41,325 nt of DNA from an uncultured Actinomycetes bacterium. GTDB taxonomy: Bacteria > Actinomycetota > Acidimicrobiia > Acidimicrobiales > Microtrichaceae. The stretch lies in the NCBI GenBank assembly GCA_903868545.1, contig CAIPVR010000109.1, forward strand, positions 1 through 41,325, given 5' to 3'. Positions 3,454-30,384 of this stretch are shown one piece after another. The notes below the pieces were generated by a model, which worked only from the letters and a program-made list of their open reading frames with translations, was not told where the DNA came from and did not search any database. Position 1 is the stretch's first letter; every line of letters begins with the position of its first letter. Made by a program: the position numbers and the translations under genes.

Positions 3454-5001
3454 ATGAACGGCGCACAGGCCCTCATCCGCACGCTCGTCGACTCCGAGGT
3501 CGACGTGTGCTTCATGAACCCCGGCACGTCGGAGATGCACTTCGTGCACGAGTTGGACCAGGTGCCCGGAATGCGCTCCGTGCTCGCACTGTTCGAGGGC
3601 GTGGCCACCGGGGCGGCCGACGGGTACGCCCGCATGGCCGGCCGGCCGGCGGCTGTGCTCCTGCACCTCGGGCCCGGCCTGGGTAACGGGCTCGCGAACC
3701 TGCACAACGCACGGCGGGCGAAGACCCCGGTCGTCAACATCGTGGGCGACCACGCGACCTACCACGCCAAGTACGACGCCCCACTGCAGTCCGACATCGC
3801 GTCGATCGCCGCCGGCGTCTCGGGCTGGATCCGCACGGCCACCGACCCCGAGCACGTCGCCCGCGACGCCGCCGACACGGTGGCGGCCAGCTACGGGCCG
3901 CCCGGGCAGGTCGCCACGTTGATCCTCCCGGCCGACGTGTGCTGGCTCCCCGCACCCGGCCCCGTCGGCCCCACGCCTCGCACCGCCCCTGCGGTGGTCC
4001 CGGCGGAGCGCATCGAGGACGTGGCCGCCGCGGTGCGCTCGGGTCGGACCGCGATCCTCGTGGGCGGGACCGCCATGACCGAGGGCGCCCTGCGCGACGT
4101 GGCCCGCATCGGGGCCGCCACCGGCGCAAGGGCCCTCGCCGAGACGTTCCCCGCACGGGCCGAGCGGGGCGCCGGACTGCCCGTGGTGGAACGGCTCGCC
4201 TACCTCGCCGAGTTCGCCCAGGCCCAGCTCGACGGCGTGGAACACCTCGTCCTGGTGGACGCGGCGCACCCGGTGAGCTTCTTCGCCTACCCCGACAAGG
4301 CGTCCGACCTCGTGCCGGAGGGGTGCTCGGTCCACGTGCTGGCCGCACCCGACGAGGACGCACCACGCGCCCTCGCCGACCTGGTCGCCGCGCTCGACGC
4401 CGGTGACGCCGAGGTGCCCACCGCCCCGGCCGGGCGCCCCGACCGGCCCACCGGCGCGCTCAACGCGGAGACCCTCGCGCTGGCCATCGGCGCGTTGCTC
4501 CCCGAGGGCGCCGTCGTGGCCGACGAGGGCAACACCGGCGGGCTGTTCGTGTCGGGCTTCACCGCGGGAGCGCCCCGGCACGACTGGCTGTGCCTCACCG
4601 GCGGCTCCATCGGCTACGGCCTTCCGGTCGCCACCGGCGCGGCAGTGGCCGTCCCCGACCGCAAGGTGCTGTGCCTCGAGGCCGACGGCTCGGGCATGTA
4701 CACCCTCCAGGCACTGTGGACGCAGGCCAGGCTCGGCCTCGACGTCACCACCGTCGTGCTGAACAACGGCTCGTACGCCGTGCTCAACATGGAACTCGAC
4801 CGGGTGGGCGCGGGCGCAGCGGGAGAGAAGGCCCGCGAGATGCTCGACATCCCCGGGCTCGACTACGTGTCGCTCGCCCGCGGCATGGGGGTGCCCGCCA
4901 CCCGCGCCACCACCGCCGAGGAGTTCACCACCCAGCTCGAGCAGGCCCTCGCCACCGACGGCCCCGCGCTGGTGGAGGCCATGATCCCCGCCACCCTGTG
5001 A
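3454..5001 (+). CDS. thiamine diphosphate enzyme, acetolactate synthase large-subunit-like (IlvX type)
   Basis: 515 aa ThDP-dependent enzyme, the length I recall for mycobacterial IlvX. The catalytic Glu is E48 in LFEGVATGAADGYARMAG. The cofactor-binding C-terminal domain has ADG at about 410-412 and NNGSY at 437-441, the GDG-X26-NN motif with Gly replaced by Ala. Annotated homologues are called acetolactate synthase large subunit, but such IlvX-like proteins are usually not the main biosynthetic enzyme, and no regulatory small subunit or other ilv gene is here. The start at ATG 3454 gives MNGAQALIRTLVD, typical of the subgroup. It sits 32 bp behind the GlcD-like oxidase, so decarboxylation or lyase chemistry on a 2-oxoacid made by that oxidase is a reasonable inference. 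Confidence 0.85.
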   Translation: MNGAQALIRTLVDSEVDVCFMNPGTSEMHFVHELDQVPGMRSVLALFEGVATGAADGYARMAGRPAAVLLHLGPGLGNGLANLHNARRAKTPVVNIVGDHATYHAKYDAPLQSDIASIAAGVSGWIRTATDPEHVARDAADTVAASYGPPGQVATLILPADVCWLPAPGPVGPTPRTAPAVVPAERIEDVAAAVRSGRTAILVGGTAMTEGALRDVARIGAATGARALAETFPARAERGAGLPVVERLAYLAEFAQAQLDGVEHLVLVDAAHPVSFFAYPDKASDLVPEGCSVHVLAAPDEDAPRALADLVAALDAGDAEVPTAPAGRPDRPTGALNAETLALAIGALLPEGAVVADEGNTGGLFVSGFTAGAPRHDWLCLTGGSIGYGLPVATGAAVAVPDRKVLCLEADGSGMYTLQALWTQARLGLDVTTVVLNNGSYAVLNMELDRVGAGAAGEKAREMLDIPGLDYVSLARGMGVPATRATTAEEFTTQLEQALATDGPALVEAMIPATL

Positions 5002-5016
5002 GCCCCCCGTCCCCCG

Positions 5017-5064
5017 CTCTGTGTCGCGTGGGCGCACCCATCGGTACGCCCACGCGACACGAAG
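5017..5064. repeat. dispersed palindromic repeat, copy 1
   Basis: Perfect 14-bp inverted repeat: GTGTCGCGTGGGCG at 5021-5034 and its complement at 5047-5060. An inner ACC/GGT pairing (5036-5038 with 5043-5045) follows a single mismatch and leaves a CATC loop. The whole block aligns with the copy at 7152-7210 at a constant offset of 2141 bp with few differences. It fills the gap between the ThDP gene and the helicase gene. A folded transcript could act as a terminator or stabiliser, but there is no T-run. Confidence 0.75.
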
Positions 5065-5077
5065 TGCGGCAGCATCG

Positions 5078-7141
5078 ATGAGCGGCCCGTCGCTGGACCC
5101 GCTCGAACTCCTCGACCGCGTGGTCGCGGCGATCCCCGACGGCGAGGATCGTCCGCAGCAGCGACAGATGGTCGCCGAGGTGGAACGTGCCCTCGCCGAG
5201 GGCTCGCACCTCGCCGTGCAGGGCCCCACGGGGGTGGGCAAGTCGGTGGCCTATCTGCTCCCGGCGGTGGCCAGGGCCGGTGCCGGCGTCCGCACGGTCG
5301 TCGTCACCTCGTCCCGGGCGCTGCAGGACCAGTTGGCCCGCACCGACCTGCCGTTCCTCGCCGCCACGCTCGAGGTGCCGTTCAGCTTCGCCGTCCTCAA
5401 GGGCCGGGCGAACTACGTGTGCCAGGCCGCGGTCGCCGAGACCGAGGTCCGGCTCGGCCGGGGCCCCGAGGCCCAGCTCGAGCTCGACGGACTGGCGGAC
5501 GAGCCGGCCATCACCGGCGCCGCCGAGCGGGAGCTCACCCGGCTGGTGGACTGGGCGCGGAGCACCACCAGCGGGGAGCTCGCCGACCTGGAGGAGCCAC
5601 CGTCGGAGGCGGGCTGGGCCGCGGTGTCCGTCGGTCCGGGCGAGTGCGTCGGGGCGAGCCGCTGCGGCCACGCGGAGGACTGCTTCTCGGAGCAGGCCCG
5701 TGCCCGGTGCGAGACCGCCGACATCGTGGTGGTGAACGCCCACCTCTACGCCGCCCACGTGCAGAGCGGGCGGGCGGTGCTGCCGCACCACGACGTGCTC
5801 GTCATCGACGAGGCCCACGAGTTCGAGGACGCCATGGTCGGTGCGCTCGGCACGCAGCTGTCGGCCGGACGGCTCGTCAACCTGGCGAGGGTCCACGACC
5901 GGGTCGTGGCCGAGGCGCCCGAGGTGGGGGTGAACCTCCAGTCCGCAGCAGACGCCCTCGCGGACGCGCTCGACGGGGCGCTGGCCGATGCGCTCGACGA
6001 CCACCGCTCGGGCCGCCTGCACGGCGACCTGCCCGACGGGCTGGCCACGGCCCTGACGGTCGCCGGACTCGCCGCCGACCGGGCGCTCACGGGACTTCGG
6101 GAGGCAGCCCGCCAGGCCCGGGACTCCCGTTCGTCCACCGCCCGCCACCGGACCGAGCGGGCGGTCCGCACCGCCGAGGGCGTGGTCGACACCGTGGCGT
6201 CCCTCGCCGCGCCGCTCGGACCCGGGCAGGTGCGCTGGATCAGCGAGGGCCGCGCCGGGCGGCACACGCTCCAGCTGACCCGCATCGACATCGCCGACAC
6301 CCTCCGAACCACTGCGTGGGACGGGGAGGGGCCGGCCGGCGGCGCCGGACCGGCCGACGACGGGCCCGGACCGGCGGGGGGCGAGGCGGGCGGGGAGGCC
6401 GCCGCGGACGCGCCGACGGTGGTGCTGTGCTCCGCCACCCTGGACCCGGGCACAGCCGGCCGTCTCGGACTCGACGCCCGGTTCGTAGCGGTGGACTCAC
6501 CGTTCGACTTCCGCACCAACGGCCTGCTCTACGTGCCGCGGCTCCCCCGCCCGGCCAGCGACGAGTGGCCCGACGCGGTCGCCAAGGAACTGGCCCACGT
6601 GCTCGAGGTGTGCGGTGGGCGCACCCTCGCGCTGTTCACCTCCCACCGGATGCTGCGGCGGTCGGTGGAGGCGGTGCGTGACCTGCTCCCCGACCTCGAG
6701 ATCCTGGCCCAGGGCGACGCACCGAACCCGGTGCTGCAACGACGCTTCCTCGACGAGGAGCACACCAGCCTGTTCGCCACCGCCAGCTTCTGGACCGGCA
6801 TCTCGTCACCGGGCACCACCTGCTCGGCGGTGGTCATCGACAAGATCCCCTTCCCGGTGCCCACCGACCCGATCGTGGAGGCCCGCTGTGACGCCGTCGG
6901 CGACGACCGGGCGTTCGCCGAGGTCTCGGTCCCGGCCGCCGGCATGCAGCTCGCCCAGGGCGTGGGCCGCCTGATCCGCACCGCCACGGACCGGGGGGTG
7001 GTCGCGGTGCTCGACCCCCGCCTCGCGGAGGCCCGGTACCGGCGCCGGATCCTCGACCTCCTCCCCCGTCTCCGCCGCACGCGGGATCGTTCCGACCTCG
7101 ACGCCTTCGTCGAGGGCCTCGACCTCCCGCCGCCGCCCTGA
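5078..7141 (+). CDS. dinG: DinG/YoaA-type Fe-S ATP-dependent DNA helicase
   Basis: 687 aa superfamily 2 helicase of the XPD/DinG group, presumed to unwind DNA 5'-3' during repair. Walker A QGPTGVGKS lies at 48-56, the DEAH box at 244-247 (VIDEAHEFED) and motif VI QGVGRLIRT at about 627. Four cysteines expected to hold the 4Fe-4S cluster lie between motifs I and II: C115 (NYVC), C190, C196 and C202. NAHLY shortly before DEAH is also typical. No exonuclease domain is present, so it is the YoaA-like rather than the Firmicute DinG form. ATG 5078 is taken because the frame further upstream reads through the palindromic repeat. No clear ribosome site or -10 precedes it, so the start is less certain than the identity. 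Confidence 0.9.
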   Translation: MSGPSLDPLELLDRVVAAIPDGEDRPQQRQMVAEVERALAEGSHLAVQGPTGVGKSVAYLLPAVARAGAGVRTVVVTSSRALQDQLARTDLPFLAATLEVPFSFAVLKGRANYVCQAAVAETEVRLGRGPEAQLELDGLADEPAITGAAERELTRLVDWARSTTSGELADLEEPPSEAGWAAVSVGPGECVGASRCGHAEDCFSEQARARCETADIVVVNAHLYAAHVQSGRAVLPHHDVLVIDEAHEFEDAMVGALGTQLSAGRLVNLARVHDRVVAEAPEVGVNLQSAADALADALDGALADALDDHRSGRLHGDLPDGLATALTVAGLAADRALTGLREAARQARDSRSSTARHRTERAVRTAEGVVDTVASLAAPLGPGQVRWISEGRAGRHTLQLTRIDIADTLRTTAWDGEGPAGGAGPADDGPGPAGGEAGGEAAADAPTVVLCSATLDPGTAGRLGLDARFVAVDSPFDFRTNGLLYVPRLPRPASDEWPDAVAKELAHVLEVCGGRTLALFTSHRMLRRSVEAVRDLLPDLEILAQGDAPNPVLQRRFLDEEHTSLFATASFWTGISSPGTTCSAVVIDKIPFPVPTDPIVEARCDAVGDDRAFAEVSVPAAGMQLAQGVGRLIRTATDRGVVAVLDPRLAEARYRRRILDLLPRLRRTRDRSDLDAFVEGLDLPPPP

Positions 7142-7151
7142 CCAACCCCTT

Positions 7152-7210
7152 CCCCGGCTTTGCGTCGCGTACGCGCACTGATCGGTACGCCCGCGCGACA
7201 CAAAGCGGGG
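7152..7210. repeat. dispersed palindromic repeat, copy 2
   Basis: Second copy of the 5021-5060 element, extended outward: CCCC/GGGG (7152-7155 with 7207-7210) and GCTTTG/CAAAGC (7157-7162 with 7201-7206) enclose a partly mismatched inner stem. The central CGGTACGCCC-GCGCGACAC side is nearly identical to copy 1, while the left arm has diverged. It fills most of the gap between the convergent helicase and monooxygenase genes, where it could serve as a two-way terminator. Confidence 0.7.
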
Positions 7211-7218
7211 CCAGGGGG

Positions 7219-8841
7219 TCAGGCGGGCAGGAGGTCCCAGTCGCGGAGGTCGGGGTGGGCGAGGCGCCGCCGGTACACGGTGGTGTGGTCGGTCCAGTTG
7301 TTGGTGATCCTGCCGTCCGCTGTCTTGTACCAGGAGTGGCAGTCCTCGGCCCACACGGTGTCGGCCGCAGCGGACTGCACCTCGGCGTCGTCCCGCTCGG
7401 CCGCAGCCCGGGTGACGTCGACCGCCCGGAGGTCGCGGAGGACCTTCTCCTCGATCATCTGCACCGCATAGCCCACCTGCTGCTCGATCATGAACAGGAT
7501 CGAGTTGTGGCCCAGGTTCGTGTTGGGCCCGTACAGCATGAACAGGTTCGGGAAGCCGGGCACCGAGAGTCCGAGGTAGGCCCGGGCACCACCGGCCCAC
7601 TCGTCGTTCAGGTCGCGGCCACCCGCACCCGTGACCCGCAGCGGTGCCAGGAACTCGGTGGTGCGGAACCCGGTGCCGAAGATGAGCGCGTCCACCGGGT
7701 GCTCGACCCCGTCGGCGGTCACCACTGCATCGGCCGTGATGCGCTCCACCGCGTCGGTGACCACCTCGACGTTCGGCCGGAGCAGCGTGGGGTACCAGTC
7801 GTCGGCGATGAGGATCCGCTTGCAGCCCGGCGGATAGTCCGGGACGATCGCCGCCTCGGGCAGCCGTTCGGAGACCAGCGGCCGGATCTGCTTGCGGAAC
7901 TGCTGCTCCAGCCAGGCACCGAGCCGGCTGCGCCGCCGCATGAGGTTGAAGCGCATCTCCAGCCGCCAGTAGATCGAGTCGCGGTAGGCACGCTGGAGGC
8001 CGGGCACGCTGCGGAACGCCCAGCGCTCCCACGAGCGGAACGCCCGGTCGCGCTTGGGGGCCACGTAGTTGGAGCTGCGCTGGAACAGCGTGAGGTGCCG
8101 TGCCTCCCGGGCCACCTGTGGCACGAACTGGATGGCGCTGGCGCCGATACCGATGACGCCCACCCGCTCGCCCCTCAGGTCGTGGCCGTGGTCCCAGCGC
8201 GCCGAGTGGAACATCGCCCCGCGGAAGTCGTCGAGCCCGGGCAGGTCGGGCACGTACGGACGGTTCAGCTGGCCGAGCCCGCTGACCACCACGTCGGCCT
8301 CGACGGAGCGCACACCGCCCTCCTGGTCGCGCACGGTGAGGTTCCACGTGCCGGTGGCGCCGTCGTAGGTGGCCGCAGTCACCTCCTGACGGAGCTCCAG
8401 GTGCCCGGCGAGCCCGTAGCGGTCCACGAGCGACTCGAAGTAGCCGAGGATCTCCGGCTGGGTGGCGAACTTGCGGGTCCAGTCGGCCTTGGAGGCGAAC
8501 GAGAAGCTGTACAGGTGCGACGGCACGTCGCACGCCGCGCCCGGGTAGGTGTTGTCGCGCCAGGTCCCGCCCACGCCCCCGGACTTCTCGTACAGGGTGA
8601 AGGTCTCGATCCCGGCGAGGCGCAACTGGATCGCCATGCACAGACCGCCCGCCCCGGCCCCGAGGATGGCCACCCTCGGCGAGCGTGCACCCGACGCCAG
8701 GGCCGCCCGCAGCGCGGCCGCGCGCTCCTCGCGGCCGGCCGACACCGCGCCCGTGACCCCGCCCGACACCGCGTCGCGGTACTCGGGGTGGATCGCGCCC
8801 GCCGGCGCCCCACCGTCGTCCCTCACCTCGGTCGCCGACAT
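7219..8841 (-). CDS. flavin-containing monooxygenase, Baeyer-Villiger type
   Basis: 540 aa NAD(P)H- and FAD-dependent monooxygenase. The first dinucleotide motif is ILGAGAGGLCMAI (about residues 57-69). The Baeyer-Villiger fingerprint FRGAMFHSARWD fits FxGxxxHxxxW(P/D), and the NADPH motif is VIGIGASAIQ. Such enzymes insert oxygen next to ketones (cyclohexanone, steroid or terpenoid ketones) or oxidise heteroatoms. The substrate cannot be told from sequence. ATG 8841 is preceded by GGGGGACGGGAG. A candidate -10 (TAGGGT) lies at 8896-8891, giving a leader of about 40 nt. It is transcribed divergently from the SDR-DUF2867 gene and convergently with the helicase gene. Confidence 0.9.
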   Translation of the reverse strand: MSATEVRDDGGAPAGAIHPEYRDAVSGGVTGAVSAGREERAAALRAALASGARSPRVAILGAGAGGLCMAIQLRLAGIETFTLYEKSGGVGGTWRDNTYPGAACDVPSHLYSFSFASKADWTRKFATQPEILGYFESLVDRYGLAGHLELRQEVTAATYDGATGTWNLTVRDQEGGVRSVEADVVVSGLGQLNRPYVPDLPGLDDFRGAMFHSARWDHGHDLRGERVGVIGIGASAIQFVPQVAREARHLTLFQRSSNYVAPKRDRAFRSWERWAFRSVPGLQRAYRDSIYWRLEMRFNLMRRRSRLGAWLEQQFRKQIRPLVSERLPEAAIVPDYPPGCKRILIADDWYPTLLRPNVEVVTDAVERITADAVVTADGVEHPVDALIFGTGFRTTEFLAPLRVTGAGGRDLNDEWAGGARAYLGLSVPGFPNLFMLYGPNTNLGHNSILFMIEQQVGYAVQMIEEKVLRDLRAVDVTRAAAERDDAEVQSAAADTVWAEDCHSWYKTADGRITNNWTDHTTVYRRRLAHPDLRDWDLLPA

Positions 8842-14830: not shown

Positions 14831-14920
14831 CTCACGCGGTGCCGTCGCCGCTCACGCGGTGCCGTCGCCGCTCACGCGGTGCCGTCGCCGCTCACGCGGT
14901 GCCGTCGCCGCTCACGCGGT
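14831..14920. repeat. 20-bp tandem repeat array (4.5 perfect copies)
   Basis: The unit CTCACGCGGTGCCGTCGCCG is repeated head to tail at 14831, 14851, 14871 and 14891, with a half copy at 14911-14920. All copies are identical. The TGA stop of the 104-aa membrane-protein gene lies in the half copy, so the array looks like an expansion of that gene's 3' end. It lies between that stop and the promoter region of the MMPL gene. Confidence 0.97.
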
Positions 14921-15226
14921 GGCCGGCTGCTCCTCCACCGAGGCGAGACGGATCTCCACGTCGTCGTCGACGGCGCCCGGCGCGCCCTGGGAGCGCTTCC
15001 AGACCACCACCGCCACCACGCCGACCACGGCCAGCAGGAGGAACAGCACCAGACCCTTGCGGGACTTCTTCGCGCCCTGGACCTCCTCGGCGAGTTCCTG
15101 GGCCTTCGCCGCCATGTTCTCCGCCTTCTCGGCGGCCTTGGCCGCACCCTCGGCCACCACTGCGGTGGCACCGGCGACCGAGGCCACCTTGTGCAGATCC
15201 TCGGGGATGTTGCGCTTCCTGCTCAT
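14912..15226 (-). CDS. small single-pass membrane protein, function unknown
   Basis: 104 aa. An N-terminal, Ala/Glu/Lys-rich, probably coiled-coil helix (EKAENMAAKAQELAEEVQ) precedes a basic KKSRKG and one TM helix (LVLFLLLAVVGVVAVVVW), then an acidic tail. That order predicts a cytoplasmic helical N-terminus anchored in the membrane. The start MSRKRNIPED at 15226 is preferred because GGGAGCCCGG lies just upstream; an in-frame alternative at 15259 would add 11 residues. I do not recognise a named family. Its stop codon is in the half copy of the 20-bp repeat. Confidence 0.7.
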   Translation of the reverse strand: MSRKRNIPEDLHKVASVAGATAVVAEGAAKAAEKAENMAAKAQELAEEVQGAKKSRKGLVLFLLLAVVGVVAVVVWKRSQGAPGAVDDDVEIRLASVEEQPATA

Positions 15227-28666: not shown

Positions 28667-30271
28667 ATGACCACCTGGCAGACCATCCCCGAGCTGGTCC
28701 TCGACAGCTGCTCCCGCCACGCCGACCGCGACGCCCTGGTCGACGGCGACGTGCACCTGACCCACGCCGCGTACCTCGACCGCATCCGACGGGCCGCCGC
28801 GGCGCTGATCGCGATTGGGGTGCGCACCGGTGACCGGGTGGCCGTGTGGGCGCCGAACTGCTGGGAGTGGCCGGTGGTGGCACTCGGCGCGCACCTCGCG
28901 GGCGCCGTGGTGGTGCCGGTCAACACCCGCTACAAGGGCGCCGAGGCGGACCAGCTCCTCGCCCGGTCGGGCGCTCGGGTGCTCTTCACGGTGACGGACT
29001 TCCTCGACACGGACTACGTGTCGCTCCTCCTGGACCGGCCCGCCGGGGAGCGGGCCGACCTCCCCGAGCTCGAGCAGATCGTGGTGCTGCGCGGCGCCGC
29101 CCGTGAGGGCACCGTCGACCTTGCGTCCTTCCTCGACGGTGGCGCCGCCGTCACCGACGCCGAGGTGGACGAGCGGGCCCGCTCGGTGGGCCCCGACGAC
29201 CTGTGCCACCTGATGTTCACCTCCGGCACCACCGGCACCCCCAAGGCGGTGATGCTCGCCCACGGGCCGGTGGTCCGCGCCTACGACAGCTGGGCCGCCC
29301 TCGTGGGGCTGCGGGCCGACGACCGCTACCTGATCATCAACCCCTACTTCCACAGCTTCGGGTTCAACGCGGGCGTGCTGGCGTGCCTCACCCGCGGGGC
29401 GCTCAACCTGCCGCAGGCCACCTTCGACGTGCCCGAGGTGATGCGGCGTGTGGCCGCCGAGGGCATCACGGCCCTCCCCGGTCCGCCGGCGATCTACCAG
29501 ACGATCCTGAACCACCCGGACCTCGCGGAGTTCGACCTGTCGAGCCTGCGCCTGGCGGTCACCGGTGCAGCGGCGATCCCGGTCGAACTGGTGGTGCGGA
29601 TGCGGGAGGTGCTCGGCTTCGACACCGTCGTCACCGCCTACGGCCTCACGGAGGCCTCGGGCATCGCCACCGTGTGCGACCACGACGACGACCCGGAGAC
29701 GATCGCCACCACCTCCGGCAAGGCGATCCCCGACGTGGAGGTCGTGGTGGTCGGCCCCGACGGCACCGAGGTCACGAGGGGCGAACCGGGCGAGGTGCTG
29801 GTGCGTGGCTACAACGTGATGCGTGGCTACTTCGGTGACCCGGAGGCGACCGCCGAGGCGGTCGACGGGAACGGGTGGCTGCACACCGGCGACATCGGGG
29901 TGATGGACGAGCGCGGCTACCTGCGCATCACCGACCGCCTCAAGGACATGTTCATCGTGGGCGGCTTCAATGCCTACCCGGCCGAGATCGAGGCCCTGCT
30001 CGGCACGCACCCCCAGGTGGCGCAGGCCGCGGTGATCGGCGTGCCCGACGAGCGGCTCGGGGAGGTGGGGATGGCGTTCGTGGTGTCCGCCGCGGGCACA
30101 GAGCCCGACCCCGACGAGGTGGTGGCGTGGTGCCGCGAGCGGATGGCCAACTTCAAGGTGCCCCGGCGGGTGGAGGTGCTCGACGCCCTGCCGCTGGTGG
30201 CGGCCGGCAAGGTGGACAAGAACGCCCTGCGGACCCTCGCCGCCACCCCACCCCCACGATCCGGCGAATAG
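28667..30271 (+). CDS. acyl-CoA ligase, FadD3-like AMP-binding enzyme
   Basis: 534 aa adenylate-forming ligase that activates a carboxylic acid to its CoA thioester with ATP. The P-loop MFTSGTTGTPK is near 183-193. INPYFHSFGFNAGVLACL, PGPPAIYQTILNHP and TAYGLTEASGIATVC follow, then LHTGDIG, ITDRLKDMFIVGGFNAYPAEIE and the terminal catalytic Lys in PLVAAGKVDKNALR. The phrases YFHSFG, PGPPAIYQ and LSSLRLAVTGAA closely resemble mycobacterial FadD3, the CoA ligase for the steroid C/D-ring propionate. That specificity is an inference. GAGGA precedes ATG 28667. The following 30272-30384 gap shows no clear element. Confidence 0.9.
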   Translation: MTTWQTIPELVLDSCSRHADRDALVDGDVHLTHAAYLDRIRRAAAALIAIGVRTGDRVAVWAPNCWEWPVVALGAHLAGAVVVPVNTRYKGAEADQLLARSGARVLFTVTDFLDTDYVSLLLDRPAGERADLPELEQIVVLRGAAREGTVDLASFLDGGAAVTDAEVDERARSVGPDDLCHLMFTSGTTGTPKAVMLAHGPVVRAYDSWAALVGLRADDRYLIINPYFHSFGFNAGVLACLTRGALNLPQATFDVPEVMRRVAAEGITALPGPPAIYQTILNHPDLAEFDLSSLRLAVTGAAAIPVELVVRMREVLGFDTVVTAYGLTEASGIATVCDHDDDPETIATTSGKAIPDVEVVVVGPDGTEVTRGEPGEVLVRGYNVMRGYFGDPEATAEAVDGNGWLHTGDIGVMDERGYLRITDRLKDMFIVGGFNAYPAEIEALLGTHPQVAQAAVIGVPDERLGEVGMAFVVSAAGTEPDPDEVVAWCRERMANFKVPRRVEVLDALPLVAAGKVDKNALRTLAATPPPRSGE

Positions 30272-30384
30272 GGGTCCTCCGGGCGCTCTCCGGCACCCCA
30301 ACCGCCGAAGTCCGCGGCTTGGTGCGACCTGGTGCGGCCCGGACCGCCCGCCAGCCGCGTCAACAACCTGGCAGGGCACAACAG

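Follow-up and report, generated by a model that had tools for sequence, protein, structure and literature searches.

Two similar palindromes enclose a helicase gene in an uncultured member of the Actinomycetes, and they raise the question of what these repeats are, how they come to lie at the ends of genes, and whether the gene between them has any part in this. We analyzed the 41,325-nt stretch that holds them (contig CAIPVR010000109.1, hereafter the window) together with the rest of its source genome, an actinobacterial draft of 3,688,399 bases (3.69 Mb) in 335 contigs, and with other genomes. A preliminary description of the window had placed a palindrome pair around the helicase gene, and both copies were found there (Table 1). 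The core of copy 1 occupies positions 5021-5060 and forms 14 perfect pairs counted from its outer end, the perfect 14-bp stem already described. In the core of copy 2, one arm base is changed, less of the interior is paired and the outer stem, GCTTT/AAAGC, is longer, which bears out its characterization as decayed inside and extended outside. The two sites are linked both by a direct repeat of 66 nt (82% identity) and by an inverted match of 61 nt (79% identity). A strict palindrome pattern matched three times in the window, compared with zero matches in 100 shuffles, and folding as single-stranded DNA gave -27.5 kcal/mol (z -6.15) for copy 1 and a z of -3.57 for copy 2. Both copies lie at gene ends: the stop codon of the TPP-dependent enzyme gene ends 19 nt ahead of the copy 1 core, and copy 2 sits between the stop codons of the helicase and FMO-like monooxygenase genes. 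Elsewhere in the window, a 20-bp unit (CTCACGCGGTGCCGTCGCCG) is repeated in tandem about five times at positions 14831-14930.

Table 1. Palindrome copies and neighboring genes, in window coordinates
Feature	Position	Strand	Description
TPP-dependent enzyme gene	3454..5001	+	gene call; Pfam TPP_enzyme_N/C
Palindrome copy 1	5012..5069	.	outer arms CCCCGCTCT / GAAGTGCGG around core GTGTCGCG-N24-CGCGACAC
DinG-like helicase gene, between copies 1 and 2	5078..7141	+	gene call; Pfam DEAD + Helicase_C_2
Palindrome copy 2	7152..7210	.	outer arms CCCCGGCTTT / AAAGCGGGG around core 7162-7201
FMO-like monooxygenase gene, convergent with the helicase gene	7219..8841	-	gene call; Pfam FMO-like

Counting the core GTGTCGCG-N-CGCGACAC throughout the source genome, as the preliminary description had proposed, yielded 28 exact copies and none for the backwards control, and the gap was always 24 bases though 20-30 were permitted. 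With up to three arm mismatches allowed, 31 places had zero or one mismatch and a single place had two, beyond which matches were at background level (94 forward versus 51 control matches); the family in this genome numbers 31 copies. The half-site consensus, CCCSGCTYTGTGTCGCG, is longer than the core, and the two halves face each other over exactly 24 variable, partly self-complementary bases. Matches to the half-arm GCTYTGTGTCGCG number 55 in the source genome, the sole unpaired one (C86:5825) lying about 30 bases from a contig end, and elsewhere one match each was found in 4 of 32 other genomes of the bacterial family. Core arm positions are identical in 61-62 of the 62 half-sites, while the inner 12 bases vary and nevertheless pair within copies at 232 of 372 positions, compared with 181 +/- 10 when half-sites were re-paired at random (maximum 213 in 2000). 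The conserved arms, taken with this excess of inner pairing, indicate that the arm behaves as a motif and the center as a pairing spacer of fixed length.

Placement was judged with a simple codon-usage gene finder. None of the 31 copies lies within a called gene, although two reach 12-17 nt into a gene end; 29 adjoin a gene 3' end, and most are found 10-40 nt downstream of a stop codon. Convergent spacers account for 10.6% of the intergenic bases in the fetched stretches yet hold 16 of 30 copies, and divergent spacers account for 35% yet hold 1 of 30, one further copy, at a contig start, having no spacer to be counted. Family size and gene-end placement agree with the earlier reading of the pair as a REP-type, small non-autonomous dispersed element. 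The other reading offered at that time, that the palindromes mark the boundaries of a transposed or duplicated segment, is not supported: having a member of a dispersed family on either side is not peculiar to the helicase gene, as an unrelated gene (L030:2842-3696) is placed in the same way between two copies of a different family. The helicase is an incidental neighbor, a bystander.

Their position, with 16 of the 31 copies between convergent genes, together with their strong hairpins, would also suit bidirectional terminators or stabilizing hairpins of 3' ends, conserved as RNA and spread by recombination only, next to which the nuclease genes described below would be flanked by coincidence. 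The palindromes nevertheless have no U-tract beside the stem, their arms are conserved while the outer variable positions -6 and -2 pair no better than random, and Rfam gave no match in the window or at the two nuclease loci L044 and L057. We regard this explanation as unlikely, although the palindromes may have a side role in termination.

Palindrome-adjacent genes were compared all against all across genomes. This traced homologous nuclease genes lying between two palindromes, one on contig C236 of the source genome (L044:201-1130) and one in genome G002 (L057:116-1048). The preliminary description had been right about the pair and its REP-type character and had missed the nuclease gene between two copies, which is on another contig. 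We estimate a probability of roughly two in three that each window site is a solitary copy of a mobile palindromic repeat served by an enzyme of its own, the two-domain nuclease encoded on C236. The copy on the 5' side of this gene, folded as single-stranded DNA, had a z of -11.9. At its other end, the nuclease gene runs into the 3' palindrome (L044:1108-1130), which provides its final codons and stop (CGC TCT GTG TCG CGC TGA). A tblastn search of PLSDB for plasmid-borne relatives of the C236 nuclease (P0001) returned no match.

A scan of a species-genome collection with TCT-extended arms returned 49 stretches, a count that depends on the arm pattern used, mostly from actinobacterial MAGs and some from rumen Bacteroidales. 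Dispersed copies occur in eight actinobacterial genomes (the source genome, G002, FR_25, Kiruna3, WLIV, E19, NC_groundwater_280 and RYN_34), and in all of these except RYN_34 a nuclease gene lies between two palindromes with the arm of the source genome (7/8), the flanking copies in FR_25 and NC_groundwater_280 being partly degenerate. In RYN_34, the palindromes around a nuclease gene are no more than a near-variant, and that gene contains an internal stop. Genome G005 contains the palindrome pattern once and ten nuclease matches, none of those examined being flanked by the source-genome arm. Similar arms also occur in five further genomes (four Bacteroidales/Bacteroidia, one Rhodospirillales) in which the nuclease profile had no match. 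At six rumen Bacteroidales loci (L075, L082, L091, L095, L098 and L110) the arms read TCTGTGTCGCG-N34-CGCGACACAGA and are mostly nested in a larger inverted repeat (CAGACG...CGTCTG), with copies next to genes for tricorn-like S41 proteases at L091 and L110 and for an outer-membrane barrel at L082. In the rumen genomes with these arms, the AbiEi-nuclease profile found nothing, and the arms possibly belong to an unrelated element of similar appearance. Three matches to the arm pattern on viral contigs represent a different element and were set aside. At Kiruna3 and WLIV loci L066, L073, L081, L084, L092, L105, L108 and L112, palindromes are paired about 88-99 or 216-220 bp apart, several of them with nearly equal centers, as if duplicated jointly.

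Other nucleases of the same family carry other, different flanking repeats. When the 5' and 3' flanks of each nuclease locus were compared, paired repeats with a score of 35 or more were found at 48 of 57 loci in nine palindrome-bearing genomes (the source genome and the eight with profile matches; 3 of 60 loci were left out as truncated) and, in a phylum-wide draw, at 16 of 32 relatives of full length, leaving 9 of 57 and 16 of 32 loci with no pair at this threshold. Among control genes, 1 of 203 had a flank pair at the same score, and that gene has a copy of the paralog C19 repeat on each side. Of 64 paired segments, 36 passed a simple shuffle test for palindromes. In the source genome, paralogs C19 and C313, named after their contigs, share a dispersed repeat motif with 79 genome matches compared with 5 for the control. 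A member of this C19/C313-type family (AATAGGGGTCC...), the full repeats of which flank the two paralogs, is also present in the window at about 30262-30310 (match start 30272, + strand). Nucleases that are about half identical already bear unlike repeats, and similarity between palindromes showed no significant correlation with similarity between nucleases (Spearman 0.085; 310 of 2000 permutations as high). Nor do the nucleases with the source-genome arm form one clade; they occupy several places in a quick tree, in which several rows are probably misframed or contain internal stops.

These flanks bear on two of the alternatives. Terminators would not be expected to differ from one nuclease to the next, or to stand upstream of the nuclease start as well as after the gene, as these repeats do. 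The second alternative holds that the nuclease genes are ordinary defense or selfish genes inserting preferentially beside pre-existing palindromes, which would be targets rather than partners. Homing enzymes are described as promoting insertion of the very frames that encode them at target sites (PMC3943268), and the dispersed copies vastly exceed the nuclease genes in number, as this account would have it. It fits poorly with repeats that stand on both sides and differ even between nucleases that are about half identical: as the flanking repeats change from nuclease to nuclease, each gene would need a pre-existing family of its own. We therefore consider insertion beside existing targets improbable.

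The C-terminus of the nuclease matches PF18741/PF04480 (REase MTES_1575/DUF559), and a sequence profile reaches 3hrl (1e-11) and 3r3p (6e-6). In an AlphaFold2 model built on 43 relatives (mean pLDDT 92), the predicted structure of residues 1-198 matches, over 180 residues, the AbiEi antitoxin (6y8q; Z 12.8, 13% identity). That of residues 199-304 matches, over about 100 residues, both Vsr (1cw0, Z 11.4) and the homing endonuclease I-Bth0305I (3r3p, Z 13.7). Conservation is high at E204 (42/43), D235 (43/43), E246 (43/43), H253 (38/43) and D262 (43/43), and we infer that E204, D235, H253 and D262 are the residues of the EDxHD motif. With the EDxHD homing endonuclease I-Bth0305I and with Vsr, the nuclease shares its catalytic domain fold and conserved acidic and histidine residues; unlike them, it is fused to an AbiEi-like domain, free-standing and palindrome-flanked, with several divergent paralogs per genome. 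The predicted N-terminal part resembles AbiEi, of type IV toxin-antitoxin systems, in its two-domain fold, and the protein differs from AbiEi in having a nuclease domain fused behind and in the presence of repeats on both sides of the gene and genome-wide. As AbiEi is reported to bind inverted repeats (PMC7319586) and I-Bth0305I is described in a review as forming a dimer on a target just under 60 bp long (PMC3943268), a length close to that of the palindromes here, it is plausible by analogy that a dimer of the fusion protein would sit on a palindrome of about 60 bp.

The same resemblance could be taken to mean that the palindromes are operators of an AbiEi-like autorepressor, that the nuclease is a defense or toxin-antitoxin protein, and that the dispersed copies are its regulon or self-recognition sites. 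Antitoxins of the AbiEi family are reported to bind the inverted repeats of their own gene promoters (PMC7319586), PADLOC AbiEi models match 42 of 43 members of the nuclease family, and the upstream copy ends a median of 74 nt before the matched gene start. An operator role does not account for a second copy downstream of the nuclease gene, nor for dispersed copies that stand at gene 3' ends and avoid the divergent spacers where promoters lie. Taken with the rates of change in the arms given below, this leads us to judge the operator explanation decidedly unlikely.

Close relatives allowed turnover of the palindromes to be followed. Identity between Kiruna3 and WLIV over matched stretches is about 95%, mostly about 92-97%, and E19 is more distant. 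Nine Kiruna3 junctions were found in WLIV via their flanks: WLIV shares the palindromes at two (L083, L108), has no recognizable palindrome at five (L066, L071, L081, L100, L101) and has a palindrome with other arms at two (L070, L096). At these last two, compared with WLIV junctions L266 and L278, TCTGTGTCGCG stands against TTCATGTCGCGG or TCACGTCGCG at the same gene junction. E19 is empty at L071, L083 and L100. As L071 is empty in both relatives, the pattern at this junction, the sole one to favor gain, suggests a gain in Kiruna3; the absences at other junctions could be deletions. Palindromes missing at orthologous junctions also argue against terminators. Short shared bases, such as a target-site duplication might leave, were seen at some junctions (TCAG at L066, CCC at L081).

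Once in place, the arms are not visibly more protected than the center, as indicated by their similar rates of change: across 11 orthologous Kiruna3/WLIV copies, 6 of 264 arm sites, 7 of 330 interior sites and 44 of 660 flank sites changed. Most of these copies had been picked because their arms were exact; among the four with less bias (L083, L108), 6 of 96 arm sites and 4 of 120 interior sites changed. Operators would be expected to keep their arms, and these arms changed no slower than the interior. When copies are compared with each other, the arms are far more alike than the centers. The nuclease loci are syntenic in Kiruna3, WLIV and E19, and movement of the gene was not seen among them. 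The syntenic nuclease genes have 72-75% identity, and the DNA flanking them 81-89% (L069/L172 versus L175; L173 versus L176).

In their architecture, the palindromes resemble the REPIN-RAYT system, in which REPINs have conserved arms, and spacers that retain their length and their ability to form a hairpin (PMC3116915). Here too, short inverted arms are conserved in sequence and the spacer in length and pairing, the repeats are extragenic, multi-copy and clustered, a cognate enzyme gene adjoins them, and several families coexist in a genome, each with its own enzyme, as reported for REPIN-RAYT (PMC3116915, PMC8266576). The enzyme differs, being an AbiEi-like/EDxHD-type nuclease and not an HUH Y1 transposase, and no GTAG tag is present in the half-site consensus. 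The preliminary description had pointed to a RAYT-type transposase, and this expectation was not borne out: PF01797 (Y1_Tnp) had no match in any of 9 palindrome-bearing genomes, against positive results in 5 of 14 control genomes. If the draft assembly had missed a RAYT, a classical REP/REPIN family mobilized by it would explain the conserved inverted arms and the fixed-length variable spacer with compensatory pairing, an architecture reported for REPINs (PMC3116915). Such a family is already disfavored and in our view extremely improbable, given the missing Y1_Tnp alongside positive controls, the absent GTAG, and a different enzyme as the bracketed gene in seven genomes. CGTC-tagged REPs are also palindromic dispersed repeats, for which no dedicated transposase is reported (PMC3733652); their described loops are of 4-5 bp, and they are reported from five other phyla, Actinobacteria not among them. 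The present palindromes are likewise dispersed, and differ in their arms and lengths. CGTC is absent from the source-genome consensus, and many Kiruna3/WLIV copies read CGTCTGTGTCGCG.

By analogy, then, the palindrome family may work like a REPIN-RAYT system with an unrelated enzyme. The partnership of the palindrome family with a homing-type nuclease is well supported; cutting, copying and the direction of movement are steps that we infer. The AbiEi-like domain of a nuclease dimer would bind the two inverted arms, and the EDxHD-type domain would cut or nick in or near the unconserved center. Repair or replication of the cut could then copy the palindrome, in trans, into other gene ends tolerated by the host. 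Recognition and copying would require that both arms be intact and correctly spaced, which amounts to selection for copying: a palindrome with a damaged arm would give rise to no further copies, and arm sequences would remain uniform although the family turns over fast. The center would drift yet retain its length and hairpin capacity. More broadly, we propose tentatively, as a real possibility, that Actinomycetota harbor a class of mobile palindromes convergent with REPIN-RAYT, in which a nuclease of the AbiEi-like/EDxHD type would recognize the inverted arms and copy the palindrome from one gene end to another, with several such nucleases per genome, each owning a family that switches fast.

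REP-like palindromes are common in bacteria, and in the literature surveyed an HUH transposase is their sole dedicated enzyme; in open-license PMC literature, no paper was found on DUF559 or AbiEi-nuclease genes with flanking palindromes. The finding of interest here is that palindrome families are paired with homing-type nucleases, whose genes are repeatedly placed beside their own palindromes. If the nuclease moves them, small palindromic repeats would have emerged, as selfish or domesticated units, together with enzymes that are unrelated. The proposal, if true, would give a function to the common, uncharacterized DUF559/MTES_1575 protein family, and many AbiEi/DUF559-like proteins would gain a testable role and a predicted DNA target that can be read from their own flanks.
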